64,000 nucleotides of DNA, taken from positions 124,001 through 188,000 of the forward strand of contig NZ_JPOI01000001.1 in NCBI RefSeq assembly GCF_000733845.1, given 5' to 3'. This DNA is from Geobacillus vulcani PSS1. GTDB taxonomy: Bacteria > Bacillota > Bacilli > Bacillales > Anoxybacillaceae. Positions within the stretch are counted from its first letter, which is position 1; each line of letters starts with the position of its first letter. The translations under genes were made by a program, and so were the position numbers. Below the pieces are notes generated by a model, which was not told the DNA's origin, searched no databases, and saw nothing but the letters and a program-made list of their open reading frames with translations. This document shows positions 8,298 to 37,425 of the stretch, in pieces.

Positions 8298-8437
8298 CTA
8301 GAAGGTTGTGATGGAATAGAAAACTTTGGTTGAGCGGGAGGATTTCTAAAATGGAGAAACCTTACGAAGTTGTTTTTTGTCTGAACAAAAAAACAGACCA
8401 TGTTCAAGGAAATCATGGTTTTTCACCACCCCCTAAA
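8298..8437. repeat. 140-bp dispersed repeat, copy A
   Basis: Begins CTAGAAGGTTGTGAT and ends TTTCACCACCCCCTAAAA, so the ends are imperfect inverted repeats. The internal part keeps a T-rich core (GTTGTTTTTTGTCTGAAC) where the other copies have GCAAGGTTTTTTAGTTTGAG. This is the most diverged of four copies (others at 15745, 20117 and 37286). It fills much of the gap between the sensor kinase and asnB. No coding frame is visible in it. Confidence 0.5.
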
Positions 8438-8511
8438 ACAATGGGTTCCTGTTTCGAATATCAAAACGGGCTGAATTCCTTCACTTGAAAGTCAGCCTCT
8501 TTCAATCAAGA

Positions 8512-8545
8512 GATGAACAAACGTCCCGGCTGAGCCCCGGGACGC
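8512..8545 (-). terminator. Rho-independent terminator of asnB
   Basis: On the minus strand CGTCCCGG (8537-8544) pairs with CCGGGACG (8522-8529) around GGCTCAG, followed by TTTGTTC. It lies 13 bases after the asnB stop. Confidence 0.8.
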
Positions 8546-8557
8546 TTCCTTTCTCTG

Positions 8558-10465
8558 CTACGCCTCCAAAACAGACGCTGGCCGCTTCTCGTTTTGTACG
8601 GATTGAGCAAAATCGTACTTCTTTTCCACATAGACTTGATGCCAAATCATAAACGCCAAGACCGTCCACAGCTTGCGGCTATGGTCCGCCTTGTGGCGGG
8701 CATGCTCATCCAGCAGTCGATAGAGTACGTCCTTATGGAACAGATGATCGGTTTCACTTTCGTGGATGAGTTGTCTCGCCCAATCATACATTTCGTTTCT
8801 CAACCAATGGCGAATCGGCACAGGAAATCCTAATTTTTTCCGGTTTAATACATGATCCGGCACGATGCCTTCGGCCGCTTTGCGCAAAATATATTTCGTC
8901 GTGCCGTTGGCGGTTTTCATGTCAGGGGCGATTTGCGCAGCAACCTCAAATACCTTTTTGTCTAAAAAGGGAACGCGCAGCTCAAGCGAATGGGCCATCG
9001 TCATTTTGTCCGCTTTGACTAAAATATCGCCCCTTAGCCATGTATGAATATCAATATACTGCATCCGGTTGACGGATGGGTAATGAATCGTTTCGCGGTA
9101 AAAAGGAGCCGTCACCGCCGTATATTCGCGCCCCTCTTGGTACGTTTTGAGCAACGCCGCTTTTTCCTTTTCGCTATAGATTTTCGCATTGCCGACATAC
9201 CGTTCTTCAAGCGGCGTCGTGCCGCGCTCCAAAAAGCTTTTTCCTTTCATTCCGTCCGGAAGCAGCTTCGCGATCACCCGCAACACCGCTTTTACAATGT
9301 TTGGCATGCGGGCAAACAGCCGCAACGACTCTGGTTCGCGGTAAATGTTGTAGCCGCCAAACAGCTCGTCCGCCCCCTCGCCGGAAAGCACCACCGTGAC
9401 ATGCTTTCTCGCCTCACGAGCGACAAAATACAGCGGCACAGCCGCAGGATCGGCAAGCGGATCGTCCATATGCCACATTATTTTCGGCAATTCTTCCATA
9501 TACTCCTGCGGCGAAATGACATAGCTAATGTTGTCTACCCCAAGCTTCTCTGCGGTTTCTTTTGCGACATCGATTTCACTAAACCCTTCCCGCTCAAACC
9601 CGACGGAAAATGTCTTCAGGTGCGGATGGAATTGTTTGGCGATGGCGACGATGAACGATGAATCAATGCCTCCCGACAAAAACGCACCGACCGGCACATC
9701 GCTGCGCATATGGACGTTGACCGAATCAAACAGCGCATCGCGGATTTTCTTGACAAGCTCCTCTTCCGATTGGCGAATGGACTCGAAGGATGCCTTCCAA
9801 TAACGATGAATGGTGAGCGGTTTTCCGACTTTTTTCTTGAGATAATGCCCCGGCTCCAGCTTGTAAATGCCGGCCGACATCGTCAGCGGCTCAGGGACGT
9901 ATTGGAAGGTTAAATAATGCTGCAGGGAGTCGCCGTTCAGCGATTCCTGTCCGAGGGCCAGCAAGATGCTTTTCTTTTCCGAAGCGAAAAACGTGCGGTC
10001 TCCTTGCTCCGCATAAAAAAACGGCTTAATGCCGAACGGATCCCGCGCCGCAAACACTGTTTTCTCTTGCTTGTCCCAAATGACAAACGCAAACATCCCG
10101 CGCAGCTTTTCGACTGCTTTTTCTTTTTCGGCGCTGTAAAGAGCAACAATCACCTCGGTATCCGAATGCGTCGCAAACGAATATCCTTTCGCCGCCAGCT
10201 CTTCCCGCAATTCAAGATAGTTGTAAATTTCCCCGTTAAAAATGATCCAATATCGATCGTTTTCATAAGACAGCGGCTGATGTCCCGCCTCCAGATCGAT
10301 GATGCTCAAACGCCGAAAACCAAAACTCACGTAGTCATCCAAAAAATACCCCTCATCGTCGGGGCCGCGATGGATAATCAGGCGGTTCATCTCCGCCAAC
10401 GTCGTTTTCCATGTTTGCTCCATCGCTTTCGGGCGATCATGAATACAGCCAATAAAACCGCACAT
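8558..10465 (-). CDS. asnB: Asparagine synthetase, glutamine-hydrolysing
   Basis: 635 residues. It makes asparagine from aspartate, ATP and glutamine. The N-terminal glutaminase domain starts at the nucleophile C2 (MCGFIG) and has the usual RLSIIDL and FNGEIYNY segments. The synthetase domain has the PP-loop SGGIDSS near residue 262 and the LSGEGADELFGGY motif near 365. Length fits the Bacillus AsnB group. The start is unambiguous because the N-terminal cysteine must follow the initiator. It is monocistronic, with a candidate promoter at 10571-10599 and a terminator. Spore formers have up to three paralogues, so which one this is stays open. Confidence 0.92.
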   Translation of the reverse strand: MCGFIGCIHDRPKAMEQTWKTTLAEMNRLIIHRGPDDEGYFLDDYVSFGFRRLSIIDLEAGHQPLSYENDRYWIIFNGEIYNYLELREELAAKGYSFATHSDTEVIVALYSAEKEKAVEKLRGMFAFVIWDKQEKTVFAARDPFGIKPFFYAEQGDRTFFASEKKSILLALGQESLNGDSLQHYLTFQYVPEPLTMSAGIYKLEPGHYLKKKVGKPLTIHRYWKASFESIRQSEEELVKKIRDALFDSVNVHMRSDVPVGAFLSGGIDSSFIVAIAKQFHPHLKTFSVGFEREGFSEIDVAKETAEKLGVDNISYVISPQEYMEELPKIMWHMDDPLADPAAVPLYFVAREARKHVTVVLSGEGADELFGGYNIYREPESLRLFARMPNIVKAVLRVIAKLLPDGMKGKSFLERGTTPLEERYVGNAKIYSEKEKAALLKTYQEGREYTAVTAPFYRETIHYPSVNRMQYIDIHTWLRGDILVKADKMTMAHSLELRVPFLDKKVFEVAAQIAPDMKTANGTTKYILRKAAEGIVPDHVLNRKKLGFPVPIRHWLRNEMYDWARQLIHESETDHLFHKDVLYRLLDEHARHKADHSRKLWTVLAFMIWHQVYVEKKYDFAQSVQNEKRPASVLEA

Positions 10466-10570
10466 GGCGATGATTGTCCCTCCACTTTGTTAAGAAAGAA
10501 TCCAAAAACAACATCAAAAACTTTTTGATTTAAACCGAAGATGAAGAATGATTTATACAAAGACACTTTC

Positions 10571-10599
10571 ATTCTATCGTACACAAAATCAAGTTTCAA
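10571..10599 (-). promoter_or_regulatory. Sigma-A-type promoter for asnB
   Basis: Read on the minus strand: TTGAAA (10594-10599), a 17-base spacer, then TAGAAT (10571-10576). Transcription from it would give a leader of about 100 bases before the asnB start. No T-box elements were seen in that leader. Confidence 0.5.
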
Positions 10600-10759
10600 A
10601 AACAATCTGTTTCCATTTTTTCAGGAAAACTGCTTGCAACATTTTCAGTTTCTCATAACATTAACGATAAAATATGGAGAAAGTGTGAATTTCACCATTT
10701 TTGCACATAGATCTGTTACGATAAAAACACACACGCATGATAAAGGAGTGGAAAATAGC

Positions 10760-11644
10760 TTGTTAGCGTTTACCCTTGCTTTTCTCATCGTTTCCCTTTG
10801 TTTTGTTCTCTTGAGAAGACCTTTAAATGGGAGGATGGATCAACTGTCGCTCGGATTGTATATTTCCTGTTTCTTGCTATTGGCCGCCTCATTATCCTAT
10901 TATGCAAGTTCGACCCAGACAGGCGATGCCATCAAAGCCTTCGTACAGAAAAGAAACAGCAGAGAAACCAATCCGTCCCCCAGCAATCAAGCGGAGGAGG
11001 CGAATCGATCAGCTGCTCCTTCAAAGAAACAAGCGCTAAGGACATCCGTCCTGATTGACGCTCCCCTTTTGTCTCAGCTTCCGGAACTGCCGAGGGGATG
11101 CGAAGTGACCAGCTTGGCCATGCTCTTGAATCATGCCGGCATTCGCGTCGACAAGATGACGTTGGCGAAACAAATCAAGAAAAATCCTGTTCCATATCAA
11201 GTGCGGAATGGCCAAGTGTTTTACGGACACCCAAATGAAGGGTTTGTCGGCGATATGTATACATTATCGAAGCCCGGATACGGCGTGTACCATAAGCCGA
11301 TCAAGCAGTTGGCTGAACGGTACTTGCCGAACCAAATCGTCGACTTAACCGGGCAATCGTTTGAAAACATCTATACATACTTGGCCAAAGGCACACCGGT
11401 TTGGGTGATCACAAACACCACCTTTCGTCCTCTTCCTCCCTCTGCCTTTCGCGAATGGCAAACACCGCAAGGACCGGTCAAAATCACGTATCGGGAACAC
11501 GCAGTGCTCATTACGGGATACGATGAGCAGTACATTTATTTCAATGACCCATTGACCGCCATCAAAAATCAAAAAGCACCGAAGCAAGAGTTTATCGCTG
11601 CTTGGGTTCAAATGGGACGGCAAGCGATTACGTATCGCCGTTAA
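10760..11644 (+). CDS. Membrane-anchored C39-like cysteine peptidase (YvpB-type)
   Basis: 294 residues from a TTG start. AAAGGAG lies about 12 bases upstream of this TTG; the longer frame from 10541 has no such site and starts inside promoter-like AT-rich DNA. Two hydrophobic segments (about 1-18 and 27-45) precede a polar linker and a C39_2-like domain. The catalytic cysteine is in [13 protein letters not shown], the histidine in [12 protein letters not shown], and an Asn/Asp in YFNDPL. Proteins of this type are poorly characterised; peptidase activity is inferred from the fold. It stands alone, divergent from asnB, and is followed by a weak terminator. Confidence 0.75.
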
Positions 11645-11677
11645 GCATCGGCGAATCCGAATCGCTTGCTTTTTTTC
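11643..11677 (+). terminator. Weak terminator after the C39-like gene
   Basis: An AAGC...GCTT stem with an inner GCGA/TCGC helix is followed by seven T. The stem has bulges, so strength is uncertain. The remaining bases to 11826 show nothing recognisable. Confidence 0.5.
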
Positions 11678-11826
11678 CATTTTCGTTGAACGATTTTCTC
11701 CATACATTTTGCACATCTATTTTTTCATTATAACATCTCGCTTTCTCGATATTCTTCAAGAAGAGAAAAACGTTCCCCAGCCGAGAACTCGTTTAGGCGA
11801 TGACCATGTCCCGTTACGCTCTCGAT

Positions 11827-11858
11827 AAAAAAGGCCCCGTCTTCCCTTCGGGGCCCCT
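11827..11858 (-). terminator. Rho-independent terminator of csoR-copA-copZ
   Basis: On the minus strand GGCCCCG pairs with CGGGGCC around AAGGGAAGA, followed by six T. It lies just after the copZ stop. Confidence 0.88.
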
Positions 11859-11866
11859 TCCGTATG

Positions 11867-12073
11867 TTATTTCACATCATATCCTTGCTCTTCAATCGCT
11901 TCTTTCAGTTTTTCTACGCTGACCTTTGTTTCATCATACTCCACATCGACCGTCCCGTCTTGCAAATGCACTTCGACGCGGCTGACGCCATCCAATGCTT
12001 GAAGGGCGTTCGTCACCGCCGCTTTGCAATGTCCGCATGTCATTCCTTGTACTTGCAATGTAATCGTCATCAT
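11867..12073 (-). CDS. copZ: Copper chaperone CopZ
   Basis: 68 residues forming one heavy-metal-associated (HMA) domain. The copper-binding motif GMTCGHC supplies two cysteines near residues 13 and 16. It carries Cu(I) in the cytosol and hands it to the CopA ATPase encoded just upstream. The start is set by AAGGAGG a few bases before tandem ATGs; the first is used here. It is the last gene of the copper operon, 18 bases after copA. Length is normal for the family. Confidence 0.93.
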   Translation of the reverse strand: MMTITLQVQGMTCGHCKAAVTNALQALDGVSRVEVHLQDGTVDVEYDETKVSVEKLKEAIEEQGYDVK

Positions 12074-12091
12074 CCATTCCTCCTTAAATGT

Positions 12092-14488
12092 TTATATTTT
12101 CACACGCTTCAAACGAAGCGCGTTTGTCACAACCGACACAGAGCTAAACGCCATCGCCGCTCCCGCGATCCATGGCTCCAACAATCCGAAAGCGGCGACC
12201 GGAATGCCGATCGTATTATAAAACAACGCCCAGAACAGATTTTGCCGAATGTTTTTCATCGTTTGCCGGCTCAACTCAATAGCTTTCGGGATATGGCGCA
12301 AATCCCCGCCGACCAAGGTCACATCGGCCGTTTCGATCGCCACATCCGCTCCTGTGCCAATCGCCATCCCAATATCCGCTTTGGCCAAAGCCGGCGCATC
12401 GTTAATCCCATCGCCGACCATCGCCACACGTTTTCCTTGTTTTTGCAATTCCTCGACGATGTTCGCTTTTTCTTCCGGGAGCACCTCGGCATACACATGC
12501 TCAATGCCTACTTCATGGGCGATCGCTTCCGCTGTCCGCTGATTGTCCCCTGTTGCCATATAGACATCGATGCCCATTTGTTTTAACGTTTGAATCGCTT
12601 CTTTCGCGCTTTCTTTCACCGTATCCGCGACCGCCATGATGCCGGCCAGCTGTCCATCGATGGCAACGAGCATCACTGTTTTCCCTTGTTTTTCAAGCTC
12701 TACCATTTTATCTTCATGCACAGAAATCTCTACAGAGCGTTCCTTCATCAATTTTCGCGTCCCAATCAAAACGGTTTTGCCGTCAATGACCGCTTCAATG
12801 CCGTGGCCGGCAATAGCGGAGAAGTGCTCCAATGGCTTCATCGAAATCGCTTGTTTCTTCCCGTATTCGACAATCGCCTGAGCGAGCGGATGCTCGGAAG
12901 CGCTCTCGGCGGAAACCGCATAATTAAGCATGTCCTCGCGGAAGGCCAGCACATCGGTGACTTCCGGTTTTCCTTTTGTCACTGTTCCTGTTTTATCGAG
13001 CAATACGGCATTGATTTGCTGCGTTCCCTCTAGGTACTCACCTCCTTTAAAGAGAATGCCTTGTTCCGCCCCTTTGCCGGTGCCGACCATAATCGATGTC
13101 GGTGTCGCCAAACCGAGCGCACAAGGGCACGCGATGACAAGAACAGCGATGGCCACCTCAAGCGCTTTGGCCAAATCACCCGGCGCAACGAAGAAGTACC
13201 AGATGAGAAAGGAAACAACCGCAATTCCGACAACAATCGGTACGAAAATGCCGGAAATGACATCCGCCATTCGCTGAATCGGGGCTTTCGACCCTTGCGC
13301 CTCTTCGACGATTTTAATGATATGAGAAAGCGCGGTATCTTTTCCGACTTTTTCGGCGCGAATAGTCAGCACCCCATTTGTATTAATGGTTGCCCCGATC
13401 ACATAGTCGCCTTCCTTCTTATCGACAGGAATCGATTCACCTGTAATCATCGATTCGTCTACGGAAGATGCTCCGGCGATGACCGTACCGTCTACCGGAA
13501 TTTTTTCTCCGGGCTTGACAACGATCGTATCGCCGATCACCACTTCCTCGAGCGGAACTTTCATTTCTTCCCCATTCCGAATGACGGTCGCTTCCTTCGC
13601 CTGCAGGCTGACCAACTTCGAAATGGCTTCGGTTGTCCTCCCTTTTGCCAAAGCTTCAACATATTTGCCGACAAGCACAAGCGTGATCAAGACGGCGCTC
13701 GTTTCAAAATACAGCCTCGGCATATAGTCAGGATTCCCGAGCGTCCGAAAAGCTTCAGACAAGCTGTACACGTACGCGGCGGATGTTCCCAGCGCCACAA
13801 GGACGTCCATGTTGGCGCTTTTGTTTCGCAACGCCCGGTACGCCCCGACGTAGAAGGGACCGCCGATGTAAAACTGAACGGGTGTAGCGAAAAGAAGCTG
13901 GAACCACGGATTCATCAGCCAATGCGGCATCGGCAAGCCGATAGCAAACGGCATATGCGCCAGCATCGTATAGAGCAGCGGCAACGATAAGAGGATGGAA
14001 ATGGCGAGTCGCCGCTGCTTCTGTTTCAACTGCTCTTCTTTCCGGCCAGCACCGTCTTGTTCTTCGTTTCGAATTTGCCCCCTGTACCCAAGCGTTTTGA
14101 TTTTCTCTAAAATGTCTTCGACAGATGCAACTCCCTGCTTGTATTCAACGACCGCGCTGTTAGTCGCCAAGTTGACCGCAGCGCTTGTCACCCCTTCCAT
14201 CCGATTCAACCCTTTTTCAATCCGTGTCGCACAGGCCGCACATGTCATGCCTTCAATATCGAGCGTCACTTTTTCTGTCGCCACGCCATACCCTAAATGC
14301 TCAATTTTCGTTTCGATATCGGCGATCGTTTGCTTCGATGGATCGTATTGAATCGTTGCTTTTTCCATGGCCAAATTGACATGGGCGTTGACGCCGTCCA
14401 TCTTATTTAATGCTTTCTCAATCCGACTGGCGCACGCGGCGCATGTCATGCCGGTCACCTTCAGCGTCACGGTTTTCAGCTCCCCCAT
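12092..14488 (-). CDS. copA: Copper-exporting P1B-type ATPase CopA
   Basis: 798 residues. It exports Cu(I) across the cytoplasmic membrane using ATP. Two N-terminal HMA domains each carry GMTCAAC (first cysteines C16 and C19; second pair near residue 85). Downstream are paired membrane helices, the actuator TGES motif (MITGESIPV), the intramembrane metal site CPC ([12 protein letters not shown]), the phosphorylation loop DKTGTVTKG, an SEHPLAQAI histidine-proline motif and the [10 protein letters not shown] hinge. The C-terminal helices keep the YN and MxxSS residues of Cu(I) pumps ([15 protein letters not shown]). It lies 15 bases after csoR. Confidence 0.96.
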
Positions 14489-14503
14489 TTCCCTTTCCCT
14501 CCC

Positions 14504-14815
14504 TTACTTTGAAAATTGTTTCATCACATCCATCAATTCGCGAATCGATTCATCTCCGCTCCCTTCACGGATCGCTTTGGCCACGCAATGGCTCACATGG
14601 CGTTCAAGCAACTGTAGCCCGACTTGGTTCAACGCTGCTCTAATCGCGGAAATTTGCACTAAAATATCGATGCAATACCGATTGTCCTCCACCATTTTTT
14701 GCACCCCGCGCACTTGCCCTTCGATGCGCTTCAAGCGCTTGATGATGCGTTCGATTTCCTGTTCCGTCCGTGGAACCATTTTGGGATCGATATGGTGATC
14801 TTCATAATGGTTCAT
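14504..14815 (-). CDS. csoR: Copper-sensing transcriptional repressor CsoR
   Basis: 103 residues, all helical. It represses the operon until Cu(I) binds. The Cys-His-Cys ligand set is present: the cysteine in NRYCIDIL and the HVSHC segment in the second helix, which supplies the histidine and second cysteine. The KRLKRIEGQVRG segment is the family signature. The ribosome-binding site GAGGTG precedes ATG 14815. Its own promoter at 14839-14867 contains an ATACC-N7-GGTAT dyad, giving autoregulation. Confidence 0.95.
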   Translation of the reverse strand: MNHYEDHHIDPKMVPRTEQEIERIIKRLKRIEGQVRGVQKMVEDNRYCIDILVQISAIRAALNQVGLQLLERHVSHCVAKAIREGSGDESIRELMDVMKQFSK

Positions 14816-14838
14816 CCAACATCACCTCTTTCAATTAC

Positions 14839-15744: not shown

Positions 15745-15884
15745 TTCTAGAAGGCTGGTGATGTAAGCAGCATGCTGATTCACCGCCTTGTTTCGCAAAC
15801 TAAAAACCTTTTGCCATCGGCTTCTCGTTTCATGCCATCCGATGTCAGCTAAGGGCCATCACTATTTTTTGCCGCGCTTCTAAA
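15745..15884. repeat. 140-bp dispersed repeat, copy B (inverted relative to the others)
   Basis: One end is CTTCTAGAAGGCTGGTGATGTAA and the other is GCGCTTCTAA, matching the two ends of copy D read in reverse. The core GTTTCGCAAACTAAAAACC (15811 onward) is the complement of the core in copy D. The right end runs straight into the decayed gene at 15853-16362, whose reading frame opens inside the repeat. Confidence 0.6.
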
Positions 15885-16362
15885 ACCGATTTGGCAAGAT
15901 TTGCTGAATGCCGTAACAGGTTTGCCTGCTGCTTTGCAGCCGATTTTACAAGATGTGCTGAATGCCGTTAACAATGCCGTTGCCAATTTGCAGCCGATTT
16001 TGCAATCGATTCTCGATGCGGTCGTCAATCTGCCGACAGCGTTGCAGCCGCTGGTGCAAACGATTGTCGATGCATTGAACAATCTGTTGGCCAACTTGCA
16101 AACGACCGTGCAAGCCATTCCCGATTTCTTATCCAACACGCTGGCGCCCGTTTTAGCTCAAGCCGCTTAATTGTTGGCCTTCCTAACCGCTGAACTCCCG
16201 AACATCCAAACGATACTGCAGCAATTGCCTAGCGCAATCAATACGATCAACACGACCTTGCCAACGATTTCATCCACCTTGCAACAAGCCCTCTCCGTAT
16301 TGCAGCAACTGCTCAACGTTCTCGGCGGCTTGCCCCTTCCTTTCCAACACAATCAACAATAA
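15853..16362 (+). pseudogene. Decayed amphipathic-repeat protein gene, 5' end lost and frame interrupted
   Basis: One frame runs from a stop at 15850 to 16362 and is broken only by a TAA at 16168-16170. It reads as repeats such as LQPILQDVLNAV, LQPILQSILDAV and LQPLVQTIVDAL, then after the stop LQQLPSAINTINTTL and LQQALSVLQQLL. These are leucine- and glutamine-rich amphipathic helices. There is no good start codon or ribosome-binding site, and the first in-frame codons lie in repeat copy B. I read this as the 3' part of a surface or spore protein that lost its 5' end and gained a nonsense change. Leu-rich helical regions of this kind occur in some Bacillus collagen-like spore proteins, but no collagen repeats are present here. 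Confidence 0.6.
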
Positions 16363-18795: not shown

Positions 18796-19584
18796 TTAAA
18801 AAAGCTCATCCAAAAGAATGTAATACCGAATCTTGTCCCAATTGGGTTCTAATCCTAACTTTTCAAACAGCATATCTGCATAAAATCCCTGATGTTGCTT
18901 TCCAGTATACTTCCCATTAAGATTATGGAGCAAGCTGCGATAACACAAAGCGATATCCTGCCATTTATCTGCGATCCCTGCCCTTCCTAAATCAATATAT
19001 CCTGAAACTTTTCCATTTGCTAAAAATATATTTGGAAGACAAAAGTCTCCATGGGATAGAACAAGCTCTTCCTCTGGCTTATTCTTATTAAGCCATTCAA
19101 GAAGATGATGTGGATTTTGGAATCCATTTTCACCAAATGTACCTGGCTCTGCATCATCTATATCCACAAGGTTATTTTCCACTCTATATTTCGCCATCTG
19201 CAATTTTTTCTCTAGATTCCAACTGTATGGACAGTTACGGATATCAACATTCCATAGCATTTGCACCCCTTCTGCTAGCATCGTCGTTAATTGCTCTGGA
19301 TCTTTCAGATATTTATCTGCGCACGCCATTTCTCCAGGTACTTTGGTCATTAAGAAATAGGTCTTCTTTTCATCTTTTTCATATCCCAAAACCTTAGGAA
19401 CGGGTAGTTTGCCCTGCAACCATTCCATCACATAATATTCATTTTCTGCTTCTTCACTTATGGTTTGGATTTTAAGCACTTTATCCTTAAACAGAACGAC
19501 TGTAGAACCTGACATTCCTACATCGTCAATAGAATACTCCTCTTCATGAATTAGGCTCTTGATTTTATCAGGTAAATCAATCAT
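18796..19584 (-). CDS. Aminoglycoside O-phosphotransferase, APH(3') family
   Basis: 262 residues, the same size as classic APH(3') enzymes. It phosphorylates the 3'-hydroxyl of kanamycin-type aminoglycosides if active. The catalytic loop is LSHGDFCLPNIF (Brenner motif HGD...N) and the metal site is YIDLGRAGIADKWQD, both intact. The KLPVPKVLGYE segment and the C-terminus YYILLDELF closely resemble the APH(3')-III group. The gene is visibly more AT-rich than its neighbours, it stands alone, and it sits between gene-poor DNA and a tRNA gene, which suggests acquisition. It differs enough from the well-known alleles that I give no allele name. Confidence 0.85.
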   Translation of the reverse strand: MIDLPDKIKSLIHEEEYSIDDVGMSGSTVVLFKDKVLKIQTISEEAENEYYVMEWLQGKLPVPKVLGYEKDEKKTYFLMTKVPGEMACADKYLKDPEQLTTMLAEGVQMLWNVDIRNCPYSWNLEKKLQMAKYRVENNLVDIDDAEPGTFGENGFQNPHHLLEWLNKNKPEEELVLSHGDFCLPNIFLANGKVSGYIDLGRAGIADKWQDIALCYRSLLHNLNGKYTGKQHQGFYADMLFEKLGLEPNWDKIRYYILLDELF

Positions 19585-20116: not shown

Positions 20117-20256
20117 CCTAAAAGGTTGGTGAAAACCCGCTGTTTGCCTTGATCGGCGATGGAACGCGTGAACATAGAGGCTGATGCAGCAAGTTTTTTC
20201 TACTTGAGAAACGATCCGAAGAAGCGGTTGGGCGAGTAAATCACCGGCCCCCTAAA
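20117..20256. repeat. 140-bp dispersed repeat, copy C
   Basis: Begins CCTAAAAGGTTGGTGAAAA and ends AAATCACCGGCCCCCTAAAC, so the ends are inverted repeats. The core GCAAGTTTTTTCTACTTGAG matches copy D. Inner arms differ from copy D but still pair (CCCGCT with AGCGGT), which suggests that structure is kept while sequence drifts. Confidence 0.65.
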
Positions 20257-23192: not shown

Positions 23193-23306
23193 TCTTCTTA
23201 TCTGCCGAATTGAATGCTCAATTCGCTGGATTTAGCACCTGGCCGCCGGGCGGCTGGTTGCTGAAGCTTCATTGGGCCAGTTCCCTCCGCTTCTCTTGAT
23301 AAGAAT
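23193..23306 (-). promoter_or_regulatory. SAM (S-box) riboswitch aptamer
   Basis: The minus strand carries the S-box consensus in order: CTTATCAAGAGAAGCGGAGG, GGAACTGGCCC, ATGAAGCTTCAGCAACC, AGGTGCTAAATCC and AGATAAGAAG. The first and last segments form P1. Placement before metI-metC with a terminator between them is the expected architecture; high SAM would end transcription. Confidence 0.96.
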
Positions 23307-30500: not shown

Positions 30501-30531
30501 GCCTGAACCATCCCATTCGCTTCAGCGAAGG

Positions 30532-30813: not shown

Positions 30814-30861
30814 TGTCATTTTATGAAAAACGTTCTGCCTCCTTTCCAGCTTTTCCAAGCA

Positions 30862-30888: not shown

Positions 30889-30895
30889 ATACCGT

Positions 30896-31099
30896 TTACG
30901 ACTTGTCATTAACTTTGTCGGAATAACCGCGGCCGAGCGACGGGTTGTTTAAAATACCGGCCATCACCAAAATGCTTAACAACGCATGATACAACTGTTC
31001 ATACTTGCCAAGGTCGATGTCGACGCCAAACGTCTCCAGCGCCAGTACAACAAACGATCCGATCCCGAGCCAAAGCCCGTAATTTTTAAAACGCTCCAC
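30896..31099 (-). CDS. Small holin-like membrane protein
   Basis: 67 residues. Two hydrophobic helices (GLWLGIGSFVVLALETFGV and HALLSILVMAGIL) joined by a short acidic turn, then a polar tail NNPSLGRGYSDKVNDKS. The order, spacing and the N-D/NP-G-SD tail resemble phi-LC3-type holins. No endolysin or phage gene is nearby, so it may be a domesticated copy or a spore membrane protein. The start is GTG 31099 behind GGGGGAC. Confidence 0.6.
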   Translation of the reverse strand: MERFKNYGLWLGIGSFVVLALETFGVDIDLGKYEQLYHALLSILVMAGILNNPSLGRGYSDKVNDKS

Positions 31100-31126
31100 C
31101 GTTTGCGTCCCCCATTTGCTTTATGG

Positions 31127-31351
31127 CTAAATCCACGAGAACGGTCTCCTTTCTCCTTCGTCCCGGTCATGTTCTCCTTCATCATGCCCGTCTTGATGCT
31201 GCACCTCTTCTGCCGCTTTAACCTCATCGTCGATCCGATGCGGGAACAGCCATGGATCACGAATGCGGCCGCGCGGCATAATGACGATGTCATCAGCATG
31301 AATGATCAATTTATCGACGTGAATGACCTTCGCTTTTTTCCGATCCGACAT
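31127..31351 (-). CDS. Small acidic-tailed protein of unknown function
   Basis: 74 residues. The N-terminal half (KVIHVDKLIIHADDIVIMPRG) looks like a beta-rich core; the C-terminal half is very rich in Asp, Glu and His (DEGEHDRDEGE). GGAAAGGGGGGAA precedes ATG 31351, a strong site. It is transcribed with the holin-like gene 27 bases downstream. I do not recognise the family; His/Asp richness might bind metal, which is only a guess. Confidence 0.6.
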   Translation of the reverse strand: MSDRKKAKVIHVDKLIIHADDIVIMPRGRIRDPWLFPHRIDDEVKAAEEVQHQDGHDEGEHDRDEGERRPFSWI

Positions 31352-31438
31352 GCCCTTCCCCCCTTCCTTTCGCCTAGTGGCACTGTTAGACTATGCAAGG
31401 AGGCGAAGCGAAGTATAGGCATCTTTCACGGATTTTAG

Positions 31439-31552
31439 TTATTTCTTGATGACGGCTGGCCGACCGCAGCCGCATCCACTCGGACGCCGAACAGGCTGCG
31501 TTGTCGAAGAAAGAACCCTTGTCACCGGTTTCGACGGAGTTGGTTTCTTCAT
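31439..31552 (-). CDS. 37-residue basic protein with a CGCG motif
   Basis: ATG 31552 follows GGGAGGGATGAGGA. The product is rich in Lys, Arg, Pro and Thr (MKKPTPSKPVTRVLSS) and ends with PSGCGCGRPAVIKK. The Cys-Gly-Cys-Gly core is the only motif. Too short for reliable assignment; the setting and a strong ribosome-binding site make translation likely. It may be a small spore protein. Confidence 0.5.
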   Translation of the reverse strand: MKKPTPSKPVTRVLSSTTQPVRRPSGCGCGRPAVIKK

Positions 31553-31731
31553 TCCTCATCCCTCCATCCCGAAAAAGTGTAGCCCTCGCCGATCAACCAA
31601 TTTATGTTCAAGTCCATTTTCGTACGACTCGTCTCTAGTTGGAGCGGCATAGAAAACAAACGATGTTCAACGGCAAGAGGAAAAATGAGCGGCTACTGCT
31701 ATTGTATGGCTTGGTGAGCCAAAGGTGCCTC

Positions 31732-32070
31732 TCATTTTTCTTTGGTTTGCTCCGGGCGGGGCATGATGGCATTTTCTTGCTTCAGCGTGCGGAAAAACCA
31801 GCTGTCCGGCCGTTCGTCCTCATCCGCCTTGCCCGCTTCTTCGATCCATGGCGATAGCAGCAGCTGGCGGCGGAGCTCGTCATTTTCCTTCGCCAACTGT
31901 TTGAGCTGCTCGTAGCGTTTGGCGCTTTGGTAAGCCAGCTCCTTTAACACAATGTTTTCGGCTTCCACCTCTTTCAGACGGCGCTCCAGTTCAGCAATTC
32001 GCTCAGCAAGCCGCTGTTCACCCGCCCCCCTTCTCTCTTCGTTCATCGCCCCATGTTTGTCTTTCACCAT
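31732..32070 (-). CDS. Coiled-coil protein of unknown function
   Basis: 112 residues. A long leucine-spaced coil spans about residues 15-75 (RIAELERRLKEVEAENIVLKE, EQLKQLAKENDELRRQLLL), followed by an acidic, aromatic-containing tail (DERPDSWFFRTLKQENA). ATG 32070 is chosen since AAAGGGGGAGATG precedes it; the frame extends to 32139 without a site. Divergent from the cysteine-rich gene at 32226. Possibly a spore-assembly protein. Confidence 0.65.
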   Translation of the reverse strand: MVKDKHGAMNEERRGAGEQRLAERIAELERRLKEVEAENIVLKELAYQSAKRYEQLKQLAKENDELRRQLLLSPWIEEAGKADEDERPDSWFFRTLKQENAIMPRPEQTKEK

Positions 32071-32225
32071 TCGACATCTCCCCCTTTGATTCATCGCTGG
32101 CTGCGCCCACCAACAAAAAATCCGCATCTGTCCCAACACATTTACCTAAGCCGTTCCATAGTATACAGTAGTCCCAAACCACCAGGCGTTGGGGAACAAC
32201 TGAACGATAGGAGGAACGAAGAAAA

Positions 32226-32945
32226 ATGGGTCATCATCACCGTCGCGATACAGAAAGAGTATGCATCAGAACGCGCAAAATTTACGACTGGGTGACGCGC
32301 CAAATCGATGTGCCATTGCGAAGCTTCAGCGGCGAGGATTTGGAAGCGATTTTCCCGATGGATCACTGCCATCGGGAAGGAACGATTTGCGATTTTTTGG
32401 GAGCGCAACATACAAACCCGCAAAATTTGACAATCCGCTGCTTCCTGACAGACGCTGAAGGCAATCCGATCGACTCAGTCGTTGACCAGGACGCATTGAT
32501 TTGCCAGGAAATTACGCAGCCAAACGGCCGGCAGTCCGTCAACGTCACTCTTCCTTCCGGAGATACTGTGACACTGCAAAAAGTCAAAGCGCTCGTCAAA
32601 GGGCATGTCGTCGTGCAAATTGTCAGCCCAACCGGCACGGTTATTTGCCAATCGAAGCCAATTCCGTTCGCTACCGCACAAACGTTCATCTTGTGCGCCC
32701 CAGAAGGCACACAGCTCAACTGCCATATTTCGTTCTTCGAATGCGACACGAGCCTAGTCTGCACAGACAACTTTGCACAACTTGATGTTTCCATCACCTT
32801 GTGCCTTGAAGTCCAAGTGGAAGCTGATGTCAAAATCGAAGTCGAAGCTCGTTTCTGCCAACCGCGCGAAGAACTGGCCGAAGCCGTGCTTTGCCCGACA
32901 ACCAAATTCCCGCCGCAATGCCCGGACGTATTCCCGGCCATGTAG
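32226..32945 (+). CDS. Cysteine-rich probable spore-surface protein
   Basis: 239 residues with about 12 cysteines and no signal peptide. The N-terminus is His/Arg-rich (MGHHHRRDTERVC), followed by a KIYDWVTRQIDVPL segment. The middle and C-terminal parts look like repeated beta-sandwich strands (VNVTLPSGDTVTLQKVKALVKG; SITLCLEVQVEADVKIEVEARFC) and the end is FPPQCPDVFPAM. Similar proteins occur in spore formers and are unassigned; cysteine-rich cytosolic proteins of this kind often become spore coat or appendage material. ATAGGAGGAAC sets the start. It is followed by its own terminator. Confidence 0.6.
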   Translation: MGHHHRRDTERVCIRTRKIYDWVTRQIDVPLRSFSGEDLEAIFPMDHCHREGTICDFLGAQHTNPQNLTIRCFLTDAEGNPIDSVVDQDALICQEITQPNGRQSVNVTLPSGDTVTLQKVKALVKGHVVVQIVSPTGTVICQSKPIPFATAQTFILCAPEGTQLNCHISFFECDTSLVCTDNFAQLDVSITLCLEVQVEADVKIEVEARFCQPREELAEAVLCPTTKFPPQCPDVFPAM

Positions 32946-32960
32946 CGTCCTGCACCATTC

Positions 32961-32990
32961 AGGCTGTTGTTCCAACAACAGCCTTTTTTA
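32961..32990 (+). terminator. Terminator of the cysteine-rich gene
   Basis: AGGCTGTTGT pairs with ACAACAGCCT with a very short loop, followed by six T. It begins 16 bases after the stop. Confidence 0.88.
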
Positions 32991-33046
32991 TATGGCATGC
33001 GCCCGCAACGGATACATAAGATGAGAATGGAAGGGGTGGAAACCGT

Positions 33047-33811
33047 ATGAAAAACAAAAACGACCAACATCTCCGTCTGCAGCAACAAATCATCCACTAC
33101 CGGTCAGAAGCGGCCTCATGCCGGCAACAAGTGCAACAGCTGGAGGCCGAGTTGGCCAAGGAAAAAATGCGCAGCGCCTATTTGAAAGAGAAGCTGCGTG
33201 AAGCAGAAACAACCAACGTGGAAACGTACAAGAAAAAAATCGCTGCCTTGGAACGCCAGCTTCTGTTGTGTGAAATTGCACTGGAAGAAACGCGATATAA
33301 CACCTCAAAAGAGACACAGACACCAGCGTTTGAACGAGCTGCTGCCGTGTCAGCGTTGTTTCACTATTCTGTCGTCGTTCCGACGCATCTTGATGAGGAG
33401 GAGCTGACCGTCATCGGCGATTTCATCATTCGCAATCACGGAACAGCGCCGCTTCACCATTTGATTGTCTGTCTCCGCCTTTCACCTCCAAAAACGGCGG
33501 TGCTCAGCGGGAAAATTGTTTTGCCAAACAGCGGACGGGCCGAGCAGGAAGCGCTGATCTCCAATAGCGCGGAAAGCTGGACGTTCACCCAAGAAAACTG
33601 GCGTGAAAGAGTGCGGCAAAACGGCGAATATTGGCTCACTCCACTTTATGACGCCCCGCTCGAACCAGGCGAGGAGCGGCGCTTTTCCCAGTTTGAAATC
33701 ACCGTTCGCCCGTCAGGCAATATCCGTTCGTTGACCGTTGATGGATTCGTGTATTGCGCGGAACTGCCCAAGGGTGTTCCTGCCGCCAACCATATTGCCC
33801 TTCAGTGGTGA
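33047..33811 (+). CDS. Coiled-coil plus beta-domain protein of unknown function
   Basis: 254 residues. A coiled coil covers about residues 5-90 (AASCRQQVQQLEAELAKEK, KKIAALERQLLLCEIALEETR). From about 105 a beta-rich domain begins (ELTVIGDFIIRNHGTAPLHHLIVCLRL, EERRFSQFEITVRPSGNIRSLTVDGFVY) that looks like an Ig-like fold. ATG 33047 follows AAGGGGTGG. It is downstream of the cysteine-rich gene, so the two may work together at the spore surface. I do not recognise the family. Confidence 0.65.
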   Translation: MKNKNDQHLRLQQQIIHYRSEAASCRQQVQQLEAELAKEKMRSAYLKEKLREAETTNVETYKKKIAALERQLLLCEIALEETRYNTSKETQTPAFERAAAVSALFHYSVVVPTHLDEEELTVIGDFIIRNHGTAPLHHLIVCLRLSPPKTAVLSGKIVLPNSGRAEQEALISNSAESWTFTQENWRERVRQNGEYWLTPLYDAPLEPGEERRFSQFEITVRPSGNIRSLTVDGFVYCAELPKGVPAANHIALQW

Positions 33812-33814
33812 CCC

Positions 33815-34104
33815 GCTCGTTTTGCACCTTCATGCTGCCTGGAGGCTGCACCTGCTGTTTTGGCCGGCCGTTTTGGGCCGGCTCCATGATTTCAGACAAT
33901 AGCGGCTGGGCGTTTTCTTCCATCAACGTCATCCCGACAAACTGCGCGGCTGTTTCCGCATCACCGGCTGCCGACGGCTTCCATCCACACCGCCGCCCAT
34001 CCCTTCAGCGAACGTTGCCCAACCAGCAACAGCGATTCGCTGTCCATGCTTTTGATCAAAACGACGCCCGCCGGCATCCCTCATTGGCTGTGCCATGACT
34101 GCAA
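33815..34104 (-). pseudogene. Frameshifted small gene on the minus strand
   Basis: Read on the minus strand, one frame gives MPAGVVLIKSMDSESLLLVGQ and SLKGWAAVWMEAVGSR, then a stop near 33961. The next frame continues smoothly as AAGDAETAAQFVGMTLMEENAQPLLSEIM and beyond. The two parts read as one coherent protein of about 100 residues split by a one-base shift. The upstream AAGGAGAAAGG near 34115 would be its ribosome-binding site. The exact ends are uncertain, since the downstream frame runs into the opposite gene. A sequencing error would give the same picture. No function is recognised. Confidence 0.4.
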
Positions 34105-34137
34105 TAGCCGCCTTTCTCCTTATGACAGCCATTTGCC

Positions 34138-34172
34138 GACGTCTACGTCAATCGTTCGCTGACGTAGACGTC
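34138..34172. other. Perfect 13-bp inverted repeat
   Basis: GACGTCTACGTCA and TGACGTAGACGTC enclose nine bases. It overlaps the stop codon of the DUF1360 gene. Without a T-run on either strand it is not a standard terminator; it could be a protein-binding dyad or a stability hairpin. Confidence 0.5.
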
Positions 34173-34521
34173 ACCCATTTGCTCTGCTGACGATTGTCTC
34201 AATGATCGCCGCCCCGCCGGCAATGGCCAAAAGGACGATGAGCGGCTCGAAAACGGCCGGCCACAACACCAGACCAAGGTAACAAAACGCGGCGCACCAG
34301 ATCCCTGTGCACCAATAGCAGCTCAATAGTTCACCAATCCATCGCCGCACACCGCTCCCTTTTAGAGAAAGAAACACTTGTTTGCTTCCGTCCGGAAGCT
34401 CCTGCTCCGTCCATTCGTGAAAGGGACGGCGAATCCAGGCGGTGATCGCGTCATATACGATGAGCCGTGTCAGGCGAAAGCTGGCTAAACAAAGAAGGAC
34501 AAATGAAAACGGATCGTCCAT
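34171..34521 (-). CDS. DUF1360 (YngL-type) membrane protein
   Basis: 116 residues. An N-terminal SFRLTRLIVYDAI segment, a polar middle, then a Cys pair motif LLSCYWCTGIWCAAF near residue 70 and a hydrophobic C-terminal helix. The SCxWCxGxW pattern is typical of DUF1360 proteins of spore-forming bacilli, whose function is unknown. GAGGGGAGC precedes ATG 34521. Confidence 0.75.
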   Translation of the reverse strand: MDDPFSFVLLCLASFRLTRLIVYDAITAWIRRPFHEWTEQELPDGSKQVFLSLKGSGVRRWIGELLSCYWCTGIWCAAFCYLGLVLWPAVFEPLIVLLAIAGGAAIIETIVSRANG

Positions 34522-34695
34522 GCTCCCCTCCCCTTTCCATGATTATGACCGCAAAAAACCGATTGCCTTCTGTCGTTCCCACTTGGCAGCTAGCGAATTC
34601 TCTTTGGTACAGACGTTTACCCAAACGCTCTCCTACGCCAATCATATGATGGAGTATAGGTTTTTAACACAAGAGACTAGAAAGGAGGCGACGCG

Positions 34696-34998
34696 ATGTA
34701 CCATGTCTTTTTCGACCGGCGCCCAACCCACCCCCGCCTTTCACACGCGCTTTACGAACAGTTGACTGCGCTTCCGCCCAACGTTGAAATCAACGTGCAC
34801 ACCACCAACGAGACGCATTACAATGCACTTTTTCTTGGCTTCGAGCCGCGGACGAACAGCGTCTCGCTATTGGTTGACCGCTTTTATAAAGAGGGGGGGC
34901 GCTCGCTTACGATCGATGCTGCCACGATCACCTCAATCGATCTCCCTGCCTCCATGAGGCCAACTCCATCCGCCGACACAGATGAAGAGGAAGAATAG
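34696..34998 (+). CDS. Small protein with a beta core and acidic tail
   Basis: 100 residues. The core (NVEINVHTTNETHYNALFLGF, NSVSLLVDRFYKEGGRSLTID, TITSIDL) looks like a five-strand beta barrel reminiscent of Sm-like folds; the tail ends DTDEEEE. A related core pattern occurs in the CotO-like protein at 44264. AAAGGAGGCG sets ATG 34696. Function unknown, possibly spore-coat associated by position. Confidence 0.6.
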   Translation: MYHVFFDRRPTHPRLSHALYEQLTALPPNVEINVHTTNETHYNALFLGFEPRTNSVSLLVDRFYKEGGRSLTIDAATITSIDLPASMRPTPSADTDEEEE

Positions 34999-35012
34999 CT
35001 AGAAAAGAAGGC

Positions 35013-35053
35013 ACAGCCGGCTGACGCCGACCAGCGCGGCCGGCGCTTATTTT
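35013..35053 (+). terminator. Probable terminator before the coat-glycan cluster
   Basis: GCCGGC segments at each side of a GC-rich arm can pair, followed by TTATTTTTT. The stem is imperfect. Confidence 0.5.
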
Positions 35054-35158
35054 TTGGCGGCGCCGTTTTCTCGCTGACTAGTGCGCTTGTCTACACATTC
35101 GCTTCTCGTATTACATACACTTTTACTAATCGACAATAGATGCTAGGAGGAACTGATC

Positions 35159-36154
35159 TTGGCTTCGAAACGCTCTCGTCTGTTGTTTGACATTTTAAGC
35201 AGTTACGACCTGACCGGAACTGAAATCGACATCTTGAAGGAACTGAAAAACGACAAAGTATGGCTTGTGCGAAACAAAAAAACGAAGGAACAGTACGTGC
35301 TGAAACGGCTGAACGAAGACAAAACGAATTTTCCGATTTTGCTCCATTCAAAGCTGTACCAGGAAGGATTTCATGTCCCAAAAATCGTCCAAACGAAAAC
35401 AAATCAATATTACATCCACCGAAAAGGCCATTACTACTATTTGATGGACTACATCATCCCAAGCGGAACGACGCCCTCTTTCCAACAACGGATCGAAGGG
35501 CTCGCCCGCTTTCACGCTCACAGTCTGTTTGCCGATTGGATCGGCCCCCGCCCTTCATCGTTTCCGGAGCCAAAAGACGTGCTGAGTGCACATCGGCAAA
35601 AAGCAGCACAGTTAGGGGAGCTGGCAACGGCCTTCGATCATGGTGACACTCTTTCTCATATAATGGAACAGATGGCCCGGATCGCTAATCAAAGTTATGC
35701 ATGGCTTGAAAAAAGCAATCTACCTGATTTTTGCCGCACAGCGAAAGAACGAAAGGCCATTTGCCATGGGGATTACAACAGCAACAACCTTTTATTGGCG
35801 GAAAACCACGAAGTCATGATGATTGACTTTGACCGCGCCTACTATGGCCTCCCGCTTGATGATTTTCGCTTTCTGCTTGTTTCATTGATGAAAAACCCGA
35901 AAAACGACGCTGTAAAGCGAACGAAGCTGCTATTTGACCTTTATTTCTCCATTTGCCCGCTGTACGCTCCGTACAAGAGCGTCTATGTCGCTGATGCTAT
36001 GTTTCCTCACGTGTTTTACAGCGAAGCGGTCGGCCGGGAAAAACAAAAGCAAGCGTTGCACAGCCCATCGTCCTTGGACTTGCTCACCCGCCTCGCCGAA
36101 CAGGAAACAAAAAAATTCGCATTCTTGTCCGATTTTCTCAAAAGCGAGGGATAG
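35159..36154 (+). CDS. CotS/CotI-family spore coat kinase-fold protein
   Basis: 331 residues from a TTG start behind AGGAGG. It has an aminoglycoside-phosphotransferase-like fold: an N-lobe lysine in YVLKRLN near residue 49, the catalytic loop ICHGDYNSNNLLL near 203 and the metal site MMIDFDRAYYG near 221. CotS-family proteins are spore coat components that may phosphorylate coat proteins or glycans. It is the first gene of a glycan cluster and is followed after six bases by a glycosyltransferase. Confidence 0.85.
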   Translation: MASKRSRLLFDILSSYDLTGTEIDILKELKNDKVWLVRNKKTKEQYVLKRLNEDKTNFPILLHSKLYQEGFHVPKIVQTKTNQYYIHRKGHYYYLMDYIIPSGTTPSFQQRIEGLARFHAHSLFADWIGPRPSSFPEPKDVLSAHRQKAAQLGELATAFDHGDTLSHIMEQMARIANQSYAWLEKSNLPDFCRTAKERKAICHGDYNSNNLLLAENHEVMMIDFDRAYYGLPLDDFRFLLVSLMKNPKNDAVKRTKLLFDLYFSICPLYAPYKSVYVADAMFPHVFYSEAVGREKQKQALHSPSSLDLLTRLAEQETKKFAFLSDFLKSEG

Positions 36155-36160
36155 AGAAAA

Positions 36161-37243
36161 ATGAAACAAACGATCGCCCACTTTCTTCATGAAAAAATGA
36201 AAATCAATCAACGTTTTATTTACAACCAAATGGTTCATTTAAAAAAATACCGCCCGATCATGATCGGGTCATTCGCCGATGACGGCAGCCATCCGTTTCC
36301 TCTCATTAACTATTATCGCCTCAACGACATCGACGATTTCGGCCGCTTCGCCAAAGAACAAAATATTGTCGCTATTCACGCTCACCATGGAAAGCATGCC
36401 GTCGAAATCCTCCCGTTTTGCATCGCCCACCGCATTCCGCTTGTCGTCAGCATCCGCGGCCGCGATGGATCGGCGAAGCATCAAAGTTTGCGGCGCAATC
36501 AAAAACGGTACCATTTGCTCAAACAGCATGGGGCCCTCTTTCTTCCTGTCTGCCGCTACCTTGCCAATGAACTGATCACGCTAGGCTTTCCGCCGGAAAA
36601 AATTCAAGTTCTCTACGGCGGCATCGAGCTCGATTTATTTCCGTACCGGGAACGGACGATTCCTGAAAACGGAGACATCATCATTCTCTCGATCGGCCGG
36701 CTCGTCGAGAAAAAAGGGTTTTTAACGCTCGTGCGCGCCTTTCAGCGCGTGCATGCAGTTCATCCGCGCTGCCGCCTCCGCATCATCGGCAGCGGCAAAG
36801 AGGAAGAAAACATCCGCCGGCTTGTCAGCAAGCTGAAGCTCGATCCGTTTGTCGACCTGCTGGGTGCCATGGATGCCGCTTCGATCGCCCGCGAAATGGA
36901 ACGCGCCCATCTATTTTGCTTGGCGAGCGAGACCGCTTCAGACGGAGACATTGAAGGCATCCCCAATGTATTGAAAGAAGCGATGGCAAGCGGGCTGCCG
37001 GTCGTCTCAACAAATCACGCCGGCATCCCCGAATTGATCGAACACAAACGCACCGGCTATCTGGCACCAGAAAGAGACGACCTCGAGCTGGCGAACGGCA
37101 TTCGCTTTTTTTTGGAACATCCGGAACGAATTCCATCCTTCACTAAAAAAGCGCGCAAAGTGATTGAACAGTCGTTTGATATCACGAAACAAATCAAGGT
37201 GCAGGAGCGGCTGTATGATGAATTCATCAAAAAAACCAGGTAA
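36161..37243 (+). CDS. GT4-family glycosyltransferase (CotSA-like)
   Basis: 360 residues. GT-B fold: an N-terminal acceptor domain and a C-terminal donor domain with IGRLVEKKGF near residue 178 and the E-x7-E motif EGIPNVLKEAMASGLPVV near 266. It probably adds sugars to coat components with its CotS-type neighbour. The stop codon lies inside a terminator hairpin at 37231. Donor and acceptor sugars are not known. Confidence 0.87.
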   Translation: MKQTIAHFLHEKMKINQRFIYNQMVHLKKYRPIMIGSFADDGSHPFPLINYYRLNDIDDFGRFAKEQNIVAIHAHHGKHAVEILPFCIAHRIPLVVSIRGRDGSAKHQSLRRNQKRYHLLKQHGALFLPVCRYLANELITLGFPPEKIQVLYGGIELDLFPYRERTIPENGDIIILSIGRLVEKKGFLTLVRAFQRVHAVHPRCRLRIIGSGKEEENIRRLVSKLKLDPFVDLLGAMDAASIAREMERAHLFCLASETASDGDIEGIPNVLKEAMASGLPVVSTNHAGIPELIEHKRTGYLAPERDDLELANGIRFFLEHPERIPSFTKKARKVIEQSFDITKQIKVQERLYDEFIKKTR

Positions 37244-37261
37244 CTGTCACCTGGTTTTTTT
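37231..37261 (+). terminator. Terminator overlapping the glycosyltransferase stop
   Basis: AAAAAACCAGGT pairs with ACCTGGTTTTTT around AACTGTC, ending in seven T. The TAA stop is in the loop side of the stem. Confidence 0.9.
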
Positions 37262-37285
37262 GATGCTCAATTCTTCCTCTTTCCT

Positions 37286-37425
37286 CTAGAAGGCCGGTGA
37301 AAAACAACAGATTCTCTCGATTGGTGAGAAATCACAAGGAATGAAATGATGACGTTGCAAGGTTTTTTAGTTTGAGAAACATTGTTGGAGAGCAGTATTT
37401 CCCCTTAAATCACCGGCCTCCTAAA
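37286..37425. repeat. 140-bp dispersed repeat, copy D
   Basis: The best-preserved copy. It starts CTAGAAGGCCGGTGA and ends TCACCGGCCTCCTAAAG, giving terminal inverted repeats with a GGCCGGTGA/TCACCGGCC heart. The core is GCAAGGTTTTTTAGTTTGAG. Its right edge touches the truncated ytdA-like gene and supplies the sequence after that gene's premature stop. Confidence 0.7.

Follow-up and report, generated by a model that had tools for sequence, protein, structure and literature searches.

A family of MITEs of about 131 bp in Geobacillus, probably moved by an IS1182-like element and inserted at CTAG sites

The window analysed in this study, a stretch of 64,000 nt of the forward strand of Geobacillus vulcani PSS1 (NZ_JPOI01000001.1:124,001-188,000), contains four short repeats, designated A to D (Table 1). 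Comparison with the rest of this genome and with related genomes indicates that they are very probably copies of a miniature inverted-repeat transposable element (MITE) of about 131 bp, moved by an IS1182-like insertion sequence (IS) of 1541-1561 bp with the same ends. The four repeats had been recognized in an original prediction, and direct reading of the sequences showed that its positions were right to within 2 bases. Its observation of a nearly equal length also held (129-131 bp), but the unit itself had to be redrawn, as the body lying between two 4-bp flanking words. The common core that it described is present in the family consensus; as printed, however, it was found with up to 3 mismatches only in copy D, since copies A and B lie on the minus strand. 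A sequence-only profile (R1), trained on 45 copies including B, C and D but not A, detected exactly these four matches in the window at E<=0.01.

Table 1. Features of the four repeat copies of the window (positions are those of the window)
Feature	Position	Strand	Basis
Copy A, R1 match	8298-8431	-	33.4 bits, E=1.5e-8 in 464 kb
Copy A, left flanking word CTAG, presumed target duplication	8298-8301		read from sequence; 4-bp rule from family; pair imperfect
Copy A, MITE body, 131 bp, diverged	8302-8432	-	R1 match, outside training set
Copy A, right flanking word CTAA	8433-8436		read from sequence
Copy B, R1 match	15747-15883	-	63.8 bits
Copy B, left flanking word CTAG	15747-15750		read from sequence; right word is CTAA
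Copy B, MITE body, 129 bp	15751-15879	-	R1 match
Copy B, right flanking word CTAA	15880-15883		read from sequence
Copy C, R1 match	20118-20254	+	96.5 bits
Copy C, left target duplication CTAA	20118-20121		read from sequence; same as right word
Copy C, MITE body, 130 bp	20122-20251	+	R1 match; blastn against own genome
Copy C, right target duplication CTAA	20252-20255		read from sequence
Copy D, R1 match	37286-37423	+	103.9 bits
Copy D, left flanking word CTAG	37286-37289		read from sequence; left flanks of G008 and G011 align exactly to border
Copy D, MITE body, 131 bp	37290-37420	+	R1 match; 99% identical copy at genome position 2558715 (blastn)
Copy D, conserved core GCAAGGTTTTTTAGTTTGAG	37357-37376	+	exact match; consensus over 128 copies is CAAGGTTTTTCTATTTGAGAAAC
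Copy D, right flanking word CTAA	37421-37424		read from sequence

The boundaries of the element were defined with 115 copies anchored on their inner ends, whose flanks were read without presuming any duplication (copies were excluded if they had more than 5 mismatches in the 22 end positions, lay 20 bp or less from the border of a locus, or had a body identical to another). The body measured 130-132 bp in 93 of them. The ends are 11-bp inverted repeats, AAGGCYGGTGA / TCACCRGCCTY, and 86.4% of cells pair across the 11 positions in the 45-copy set. Target duplication was examined in 68 solitary copies, after exclusion of the 47 with an end-like neighbour within 20 bp. The left 4-mer was identical to the right one in 46 of these 68. 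Taken position by position, the flanks agreed in 61, 62, 59 and 59 of 68 copies, values reached by 0, 0, 204 and 0 of 2000 shuffles, respectively (the third position is uninformative, because it is nearly always A), and none of the 12 offsets outside the 4-bp word gave significant identity (best case, 158/2000 shuffles). Since flank identity is confined to the positions of the word, insertion of the MITE duplicates 4 bp (CTAG/YTAR). The most common target words were CTAG and TTAG, followed by CTAA, CTAT and CGAA, and the preferred hexamer context was YCTAGR. A 2-bp TA target, as in IS630/Tc1, had been our first reading, but it was ruled out by the offset test. In the mutual-information analysis of 45 copies, one of the top five pairs linked the base after the left TA with the base after the right TA; these bases were complementary in only 2% of cases, which pointed to the 4-bp duplication.

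The original prediction spoke of a four-copy family. In the PSS1 genome (3,389,115 bases), copy D alone gave 45 blastn matches at E<=1, of which seven (itself included) were 93-100% identical over nearly the full length, the others being lower or short and partial; the subfamily of copy C added 10 more near full-length copies (81-91% identity; blastn). With profile R1 at E<=0.01, this genome has no fewer than 124 matches, and the 14 genus genomes examined have between 23 and at least 158 each, the highest counts being lower bounds because only 150 first-look candidates per genome were scored. Chance is excluded as the origin of the family, because 154 occurrences of the end TAGAAGGCCGGTGA (up to 2 mismatches) were counted in the PSS1 genome, versus 19 of the reversed control pattern. 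Copies that are 98-99% identical at different places indicate recent movement.

The search for further copies in related genomes, proposed in the original prediction, was thus clearly positive: with blastn (E<=0.001) copy D had matches in 14 of 14 Geobacillus genomes and in none of 27 others. R1, used with stricter filters at E<=1e-4, detected 1, 3 and 4 matches in three of 27 other genomes of the taxonomic family. No pair of ends was found in 1.35 Mb of sequence (74 loci outside Geobacillus), and copy D had no match at E<=0.01 in 72,556 plasmid and 50,697 phage records. Distribution relative to genes was analysed in a 464-kb sample of the PSS1 genome (the window plus 400 kb) with crude gene calls. 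It contained 22 R1 matches in 17 places: 17 lay outside the called open reading frames (ORFs) or overlapped them by no more than 3%, three overlapped ORFs in part (26% in the case of copy B of the window) and two were situated inside a called ORF, in a sample of which the non-coding share was 13.8%.

The near-constant length and the pairing arms had also raised the possibility of a structured RNA, or an RNA-bearing element, in which a selected fold would preserve both; this is now very improbable. Single copies can fold (for copy D, z=-3.38 on the plus and -4.97 on the minus strand), but the other folds made did not stand out clearly from shuffled sequences (A plus, 0.13; B plus, -0.80; B minus, 0.25; C plus, -1.17). 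A hand-set structure with four helices, formed by the ends, by an inner arm (CCGCT/AGCGG), by a small hairpin and by a hairpin in the core (GTTTTTC/GAGAAAC), was paired in 80.3% of cells in 45 copies, versus at most 49.2% when slid, mainly because the ends and the core are conserved in sequence. Two-sided changes were present in 7 of its pairs, whereas shuffling gave 9.5 on average (477 of 500 shuffles reached 7), and its covariation score was 0.120 versus 0.124 for shuffled alignments. The compensating arms described for C and D in the original prediction are not a property of the family: the inner arm was paired in 67.8% of cells, and of its six pairs, one was broken in 29 of 45 copies.

RNAalifold found no consensus pairs, either in the 45 copies or in 128 distinct copies on either strand (140 profile matches less 7 shorter than 115 letters and 5 duplicates). 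Ranking by mutual information yielded no helix in either set, the top pairs being mostly non-complementary. Moreover, the four-base identity of the flanks is a mark of DNA insertion. At the four copies no Rfam family reached its gathering score; the only Rfam families found in the window were a cobalamin riboswitch, a SAM riboswitch and tRNA.

IS200/IS605 elements are not known to have inverted ends or target duplications. The four IS200/605 rows in Table 4 of a published survey all have IR 0 and DR 0 (PMC3852290, tabulated data). An origin of the repeats from an element of this type, or from one linked to IscB/TnpB, had been put forward for testing in the original prediction and would agree with the hairpins near the ends; it is extremely unlikely, because terminal inverted repeats and a 4-bp target duplication are present and no Rfam match was obtained at the copies, a judgement made without a search for tnpA, tnpB or iscB genes.

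Besides target duplications, the original prediction had proposed looking for a transposase with matching ends, and such an element was found. At positions 1021524-1023083 of the PSS1 genome, two MITE ends lie 1560 bp apart around a stop-free transposase frame of 486 aa. In all, eight complete IS with MITE ends (1541-1561 bp) were identified in seven genomes. Undamaged copies contain a single frame of 486-501 aa, whereas in-frame stops interrupt the copy of G003 and one of the two in G006 (comparison genomes are denoted by G and a number). CTAG is present on both sides in five of the eight, a short target duplication comparable to the 4 bp of ISPse1 and of one ISMac2 MITE (see below). The best NCBIfam match of the transposase was IS1182 (NF033551; 208.3 bits, residues 15-431), and the Pfam families PF05598 and DDE_Tnp_1 (PF01609) were both matched above their cut-offs. 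Members of the IS1182 family are about 1.3-2 kb in size; in its length, and with one transposase gene between inverted ends, the Geobacillus IS fits this layout.

The similarity between the IS and the MITE extends beyond the terminal repeats. The left end of the IS (GGTGAAAAAGTACAC) resembles that of the MITE (GGTGAAAAAC), and its right end (TATGCCCCATTAATTCACC) resembles the consensus right end of the MITE (TATGCTCCATTAAATCACC). Over the 20 nt inside the right end, a mean of 10.0 positions matched the MITE right end, against 5.1 for shuffled sequences and 4.9 for the swapped end; inside the left end the signal was weaker (7.1 versus 5.2 and 5.9, respectively). Among 30 IS1182-family loci, MITE ends on both sides were detected only in elements of this lineage.

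The possibility that another transposase, lost or undetected, moves the MITE, the likeness of its ends to those of the IS being accidental, is unlikely but deserves weight. It would account for the lack of similarity between the interiors of the two elements and for those genomes of the genus in which MITEs are present while no transposase of this lineage was recognized. Against it, the 11-bp ends, the polarity of the subterminal sequences and the CTAG target all match the IS, nested arrays of the two elements share CTAG, and two other IS1182-like lineages with long inverted repeats (L175, L176) have clearly different ends. An IS630 partner was considered and rejected: the PSS1 genome has one match above the cut-off, which carries internal stop codons and lacks such ends, and four weak ones (the comparison covered the IS630 and IS1182 families).

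Several observations weigh against the reading of the repeats as a MITE moved by the IS1182-like element. (i) Of the 68 solitary MITEs, 22 have unequal flanking 4-mers, as do three of the eight IS copies and three of the four copies of the window, where the words are identical only in C (CTAA/CTAA) and read CTAG/CTAA in A, B and D. (ii) The transposase scores 208.3 bits, less than the 270 bits of the curated IS1182 cut-off in NCBIfam. (iii) Nothing detectable is shared between the MITE interior and the IS (best local score 23; shuffled mean 19.5, maximum 27), so the MITE did not arise from this IS by a simple internal deletion. (iv) Genomes G004 and G008 contain MITEs (33 and 54 matches) but no transposase match at E<=1e-20, while in G010 and G011 (39 and 52 MITE matches) the lineage was unrecognized in the family search, no search having been made with the protein itself.

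Some further features of the IS deserve mention. In the PSS1 copy (L041:620-640) the transposase frame ends ...CCG GCC TTC TAG, so that the stop codon lies inside the duplicated CTAG, outside the element; some IS are known to take their stop codon from the target. Copies with words such as CTAT on the stop side would read on. A transposase of this IS was also found on a Geobacillus plasmid (NC_022092.1:21345-22754; 91.3% identity), annotated as 'IS5 family transposase'.

Empty sites in related strains, also suggested as a check in the original prediction, were found in clean form. The copy at position 1335396 of the PSS1 genome is arranged as CTAG-element-CTAG, whereas G008 and G009, whose flanks are 96% and 92% identical to those of PSS1, have GGCTTCCATT-CTAG-ATCGTGCC with a single CTAG. 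The site is likewise empty in G011, G005 and G007, but without CTAG. Exactly 4 bases separate the flanks in two other comparisons: (i) the PSS1 copy L020 (218611) versus an empty paralogous site, L194 (1526616), in the same genome, and (ii) the G006 copy L222 versus G001 (L071). In the paralogous sequence of L020 and L194, an IS1182-like gene fragment lies nearby. The copy at 2558715 has a less clearly defined empty site in G001.

For the copies of the window the picture was less sharp. The left flank of copy D aligns exactly up to the border of the element in G008 (97%) and G011 (94%), and its empty site is not clean because the PSS1 genome has an extra 237 bp there compared with G008. For A, B and C, orthologous sites could not be read in six Geobacillus loci (among 80 collected via the neighbouring copper ATPase), because one or both flanks failed to align.

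At the 1335396 site, two further genomes, G010 and G013, are occupied at the same base by other copies. The G010 copy is only 66% identical to the PSS1 copy, column by column, but 99% identical to three copies elsewhere in the PSS1 genome; the G013 copy lies in the opposite orientation and is closest (87-88%) to copies of G009, G011 and G008; and the PSS1 copy itself is 98% identical to another copy of its own genome. One CTAG therefore holds three different copies in three genomes (PSS1, G010 and G013) and is empty in two (G008 and G009). The simplest reading is that of three separate insertions, drawn from this one locus and not from a survey. Exchange or inversion in place would also leave three copies at the same base with CTAG on both sides, one of them inverted relative to the PSS1 copy, and we regard it as the less probable explanation, though not a negligible one: two genomes with closely similar flanks are empty at the same CTAG, and the close relatives of the G010 and PSS1 copies elsewhere in the PSS1 genome suggest fresh insertions of different subfamilies.

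Multiple occupancy was not the general pattern. Of 19 listed pairs (three were not computable), 16 were compared, and in 13 of these, all with the same resident copy at the orthologous site, identity was 92-99%. Most of the shared sites seen have thus been inherited, which counts against general turnover.

Arrays of copies also point to the reuse of sites. A neighbour was found next to 47 of the 115 copies, typically with one CTAG in common. Genome G012 carries two tandem copies where PSS1 and G006 have one, and the flanks of the extra copy are exactly 4 bases apart. At the site of the PSS1 copy L214 there is a single MITE in PSS1 and G003, and a MITE-MITE-IS array in G006, where the flanks of L214 (80% and 98% identical) lie 1803 bp apart around the array.

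In G006 (G006:C200, L062:1100-2900), two tandem MITEs whose ends are mostly TCCCC instead of TCACC adjoin an IS copy. The right end of this IS also reads TTCCCCGGCC, and a further end, GGCCGGGGA, comes after it. The change, identical in base and in end position between the MITEs and the IS, may represent a matched variant.

Taken with the ends and the target duplication, these comparisons bear out one half of the original prediction, namely a non-autonomous mobile element; the full-length IS with the same ends belongs to this evidence. Its companion statement, that the repeats are something other than a simple MITE, finds no support: the element is short, has no coding capacity (judged by its size and the list of window ORFs), many copies, inverted ends, a target duplication, empty sites and a matching IS, and the family is accordingly classified as a MITE. 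The second half, a structured RNA, is not supported: neither consensus pairs nor any enrichment in compensatory changes were found, and a lack of covariation in the arms is one of the two outcomes that the original prediction had named as refuting.

The following course of events may be proposed. The IS1182-like transposase would bind the MITE ends in trans, cut the element out or copy it, and place it in a palindromic YCTAGR hexamer, the central 4 bp of which would be duplicated. The ends, the target duplication, the empty and multiply occupied sites, the arrays and the matching IS are seen directly in the sequence. We infer the supply of transposase by the IS, the DDE route, the origin of the multiply occupied site in separate insertions and any effect on neighbouring genes. 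Different lineages could hit the same CTAG independently. As an inserted copy is bordered at either side by CTAG in the preferred context, both the IS and new copies could insert beside it, and the tandem arrays would arise in this way, one CTAG being shared.

More tentatively, the MITE could be a target-limited, self-renewing parasite, for which the small set of intergenic CTAG sites would serve as fixed docking points, filled, refilled and stacked in each lineage by different subfamilies and the IS. This doubtful extension would agree with the 464-kb sample, in which copies adjoin 20 of the 35 intergenic YCTAGR sites, a proportion that depends on crude gene calls and on the fact that each insertion turns one site into two. 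If it is correct, the near-constant length of 131 bp and the conserved core would be required by the transposition complex, for example as an internal site for binding or bending, rather than by an RNA.

The kind of element is already known, since MITEs of the IS1182 family have been tabulated for Methanosarcina acetivorans. There, the ISMac2 MITEs (160 and 169 bp, with 14 and 7 copies) resemble the Geobacillus family in being short and having an IS1182 partner, and one of them has a 4-bp direct repeat; by description, the only level of comparison here, they differ in their archaeal host, longer inverted ends (26 and 25) and fewer copies (PMC3852290, tables and accompanying text). As a rule, the new MITEs described in the same source have nothing but their ends in common with the partner (PMC3852290). 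ISPse1, an IS1182 element of Paracoccus seriniphilus, is similar to the Geobacillus IS (1653 bp, 16-bp inverted ends, 4-bp direct repeat); it differs from the MITE in being an autonomous IS from another phylum, and no MITE is mentioned in the sections of that text consulted (PMC3281130).

In behaviour, the nearest analogues appear to be RUP and the Correia elements. RUP of Streptococcus pneumoniae (107 bp, 110 copies in a single genome) also has inverted ends and a target duplication, and its mobilization in trans by IS630-Spn1, an IS with similar ends, has been proposed; as far as its description allows comparison, it differs in having an IS630 partner (PMC3049150, in part). The Correia elements of Neisseria are likewise short MITEs with more than 120 copies in a single genome, but in a different host, and promoters and RNase III processing have been shown for them (PMC10969869, in part). 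The bcr1 repeat of the Bacillus cereus group, a related genus, is of similar size (147-167 bp; 31 copies tabulated); according to its description it was tabulated with predicted secondary structures, while the Geobacillus family has no consensus structure (PMC2267715, in part).

An IS-family table for G. kaustophilus has no IS1182 entry, though it contains 'IS66 ISBst12' rows (PMC8024623). Among the papers listed by a literature search and assessed by title and beginning of abstract, with ISfinder and most subscription papers outside its range, there was no description of a Geobacillus MITE. Nor was there any mention in them of the family, its target rule, its likely partner or the repeated use of one site, which is weak evidence of novelty.

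The Geobacillus MITE is therefore an ordinary kind of mobile element with an unusually clean anatomy, and its notable feature is the reuse of one CTAG site. Its description accounts for a large class of intergenic repeats in a thermophilic genus, giving their bounds, a likely mobilizer and an exact target rule. The apparent recurrent insertion at one CTAG calls for caution, as a shared MITE position may not mean shared ancestry. An IS with an open frame, together with recently moved MITEs of near-fixed length and with a conserved core, also provides a system for determining what a MITE needs beyond its ends.

Several other features were noted in the window. Directly beside copy B, at 15886-15990, there are imperfect direct repeats around GCTGAATGCCGT. 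Upstream of copy D (37229-37261), at the end of a glycosyltransferase-like gene, lies a terminator-like inverted repeat, AAAAAACCAGGT...ACCTGGTTTTTT. The two riboswitches, both on the minus strand and above the Rfam gathering score, are located at 4062-4257 (cobalamin, 110.1 bits) and 23195-23305 (SAM, 92.7 bits). A gene at 18796-19584, also on the minus strand, matches the APH(3') aminoglycoside phosphotransferase family (276.7 bits; cut-off 205).

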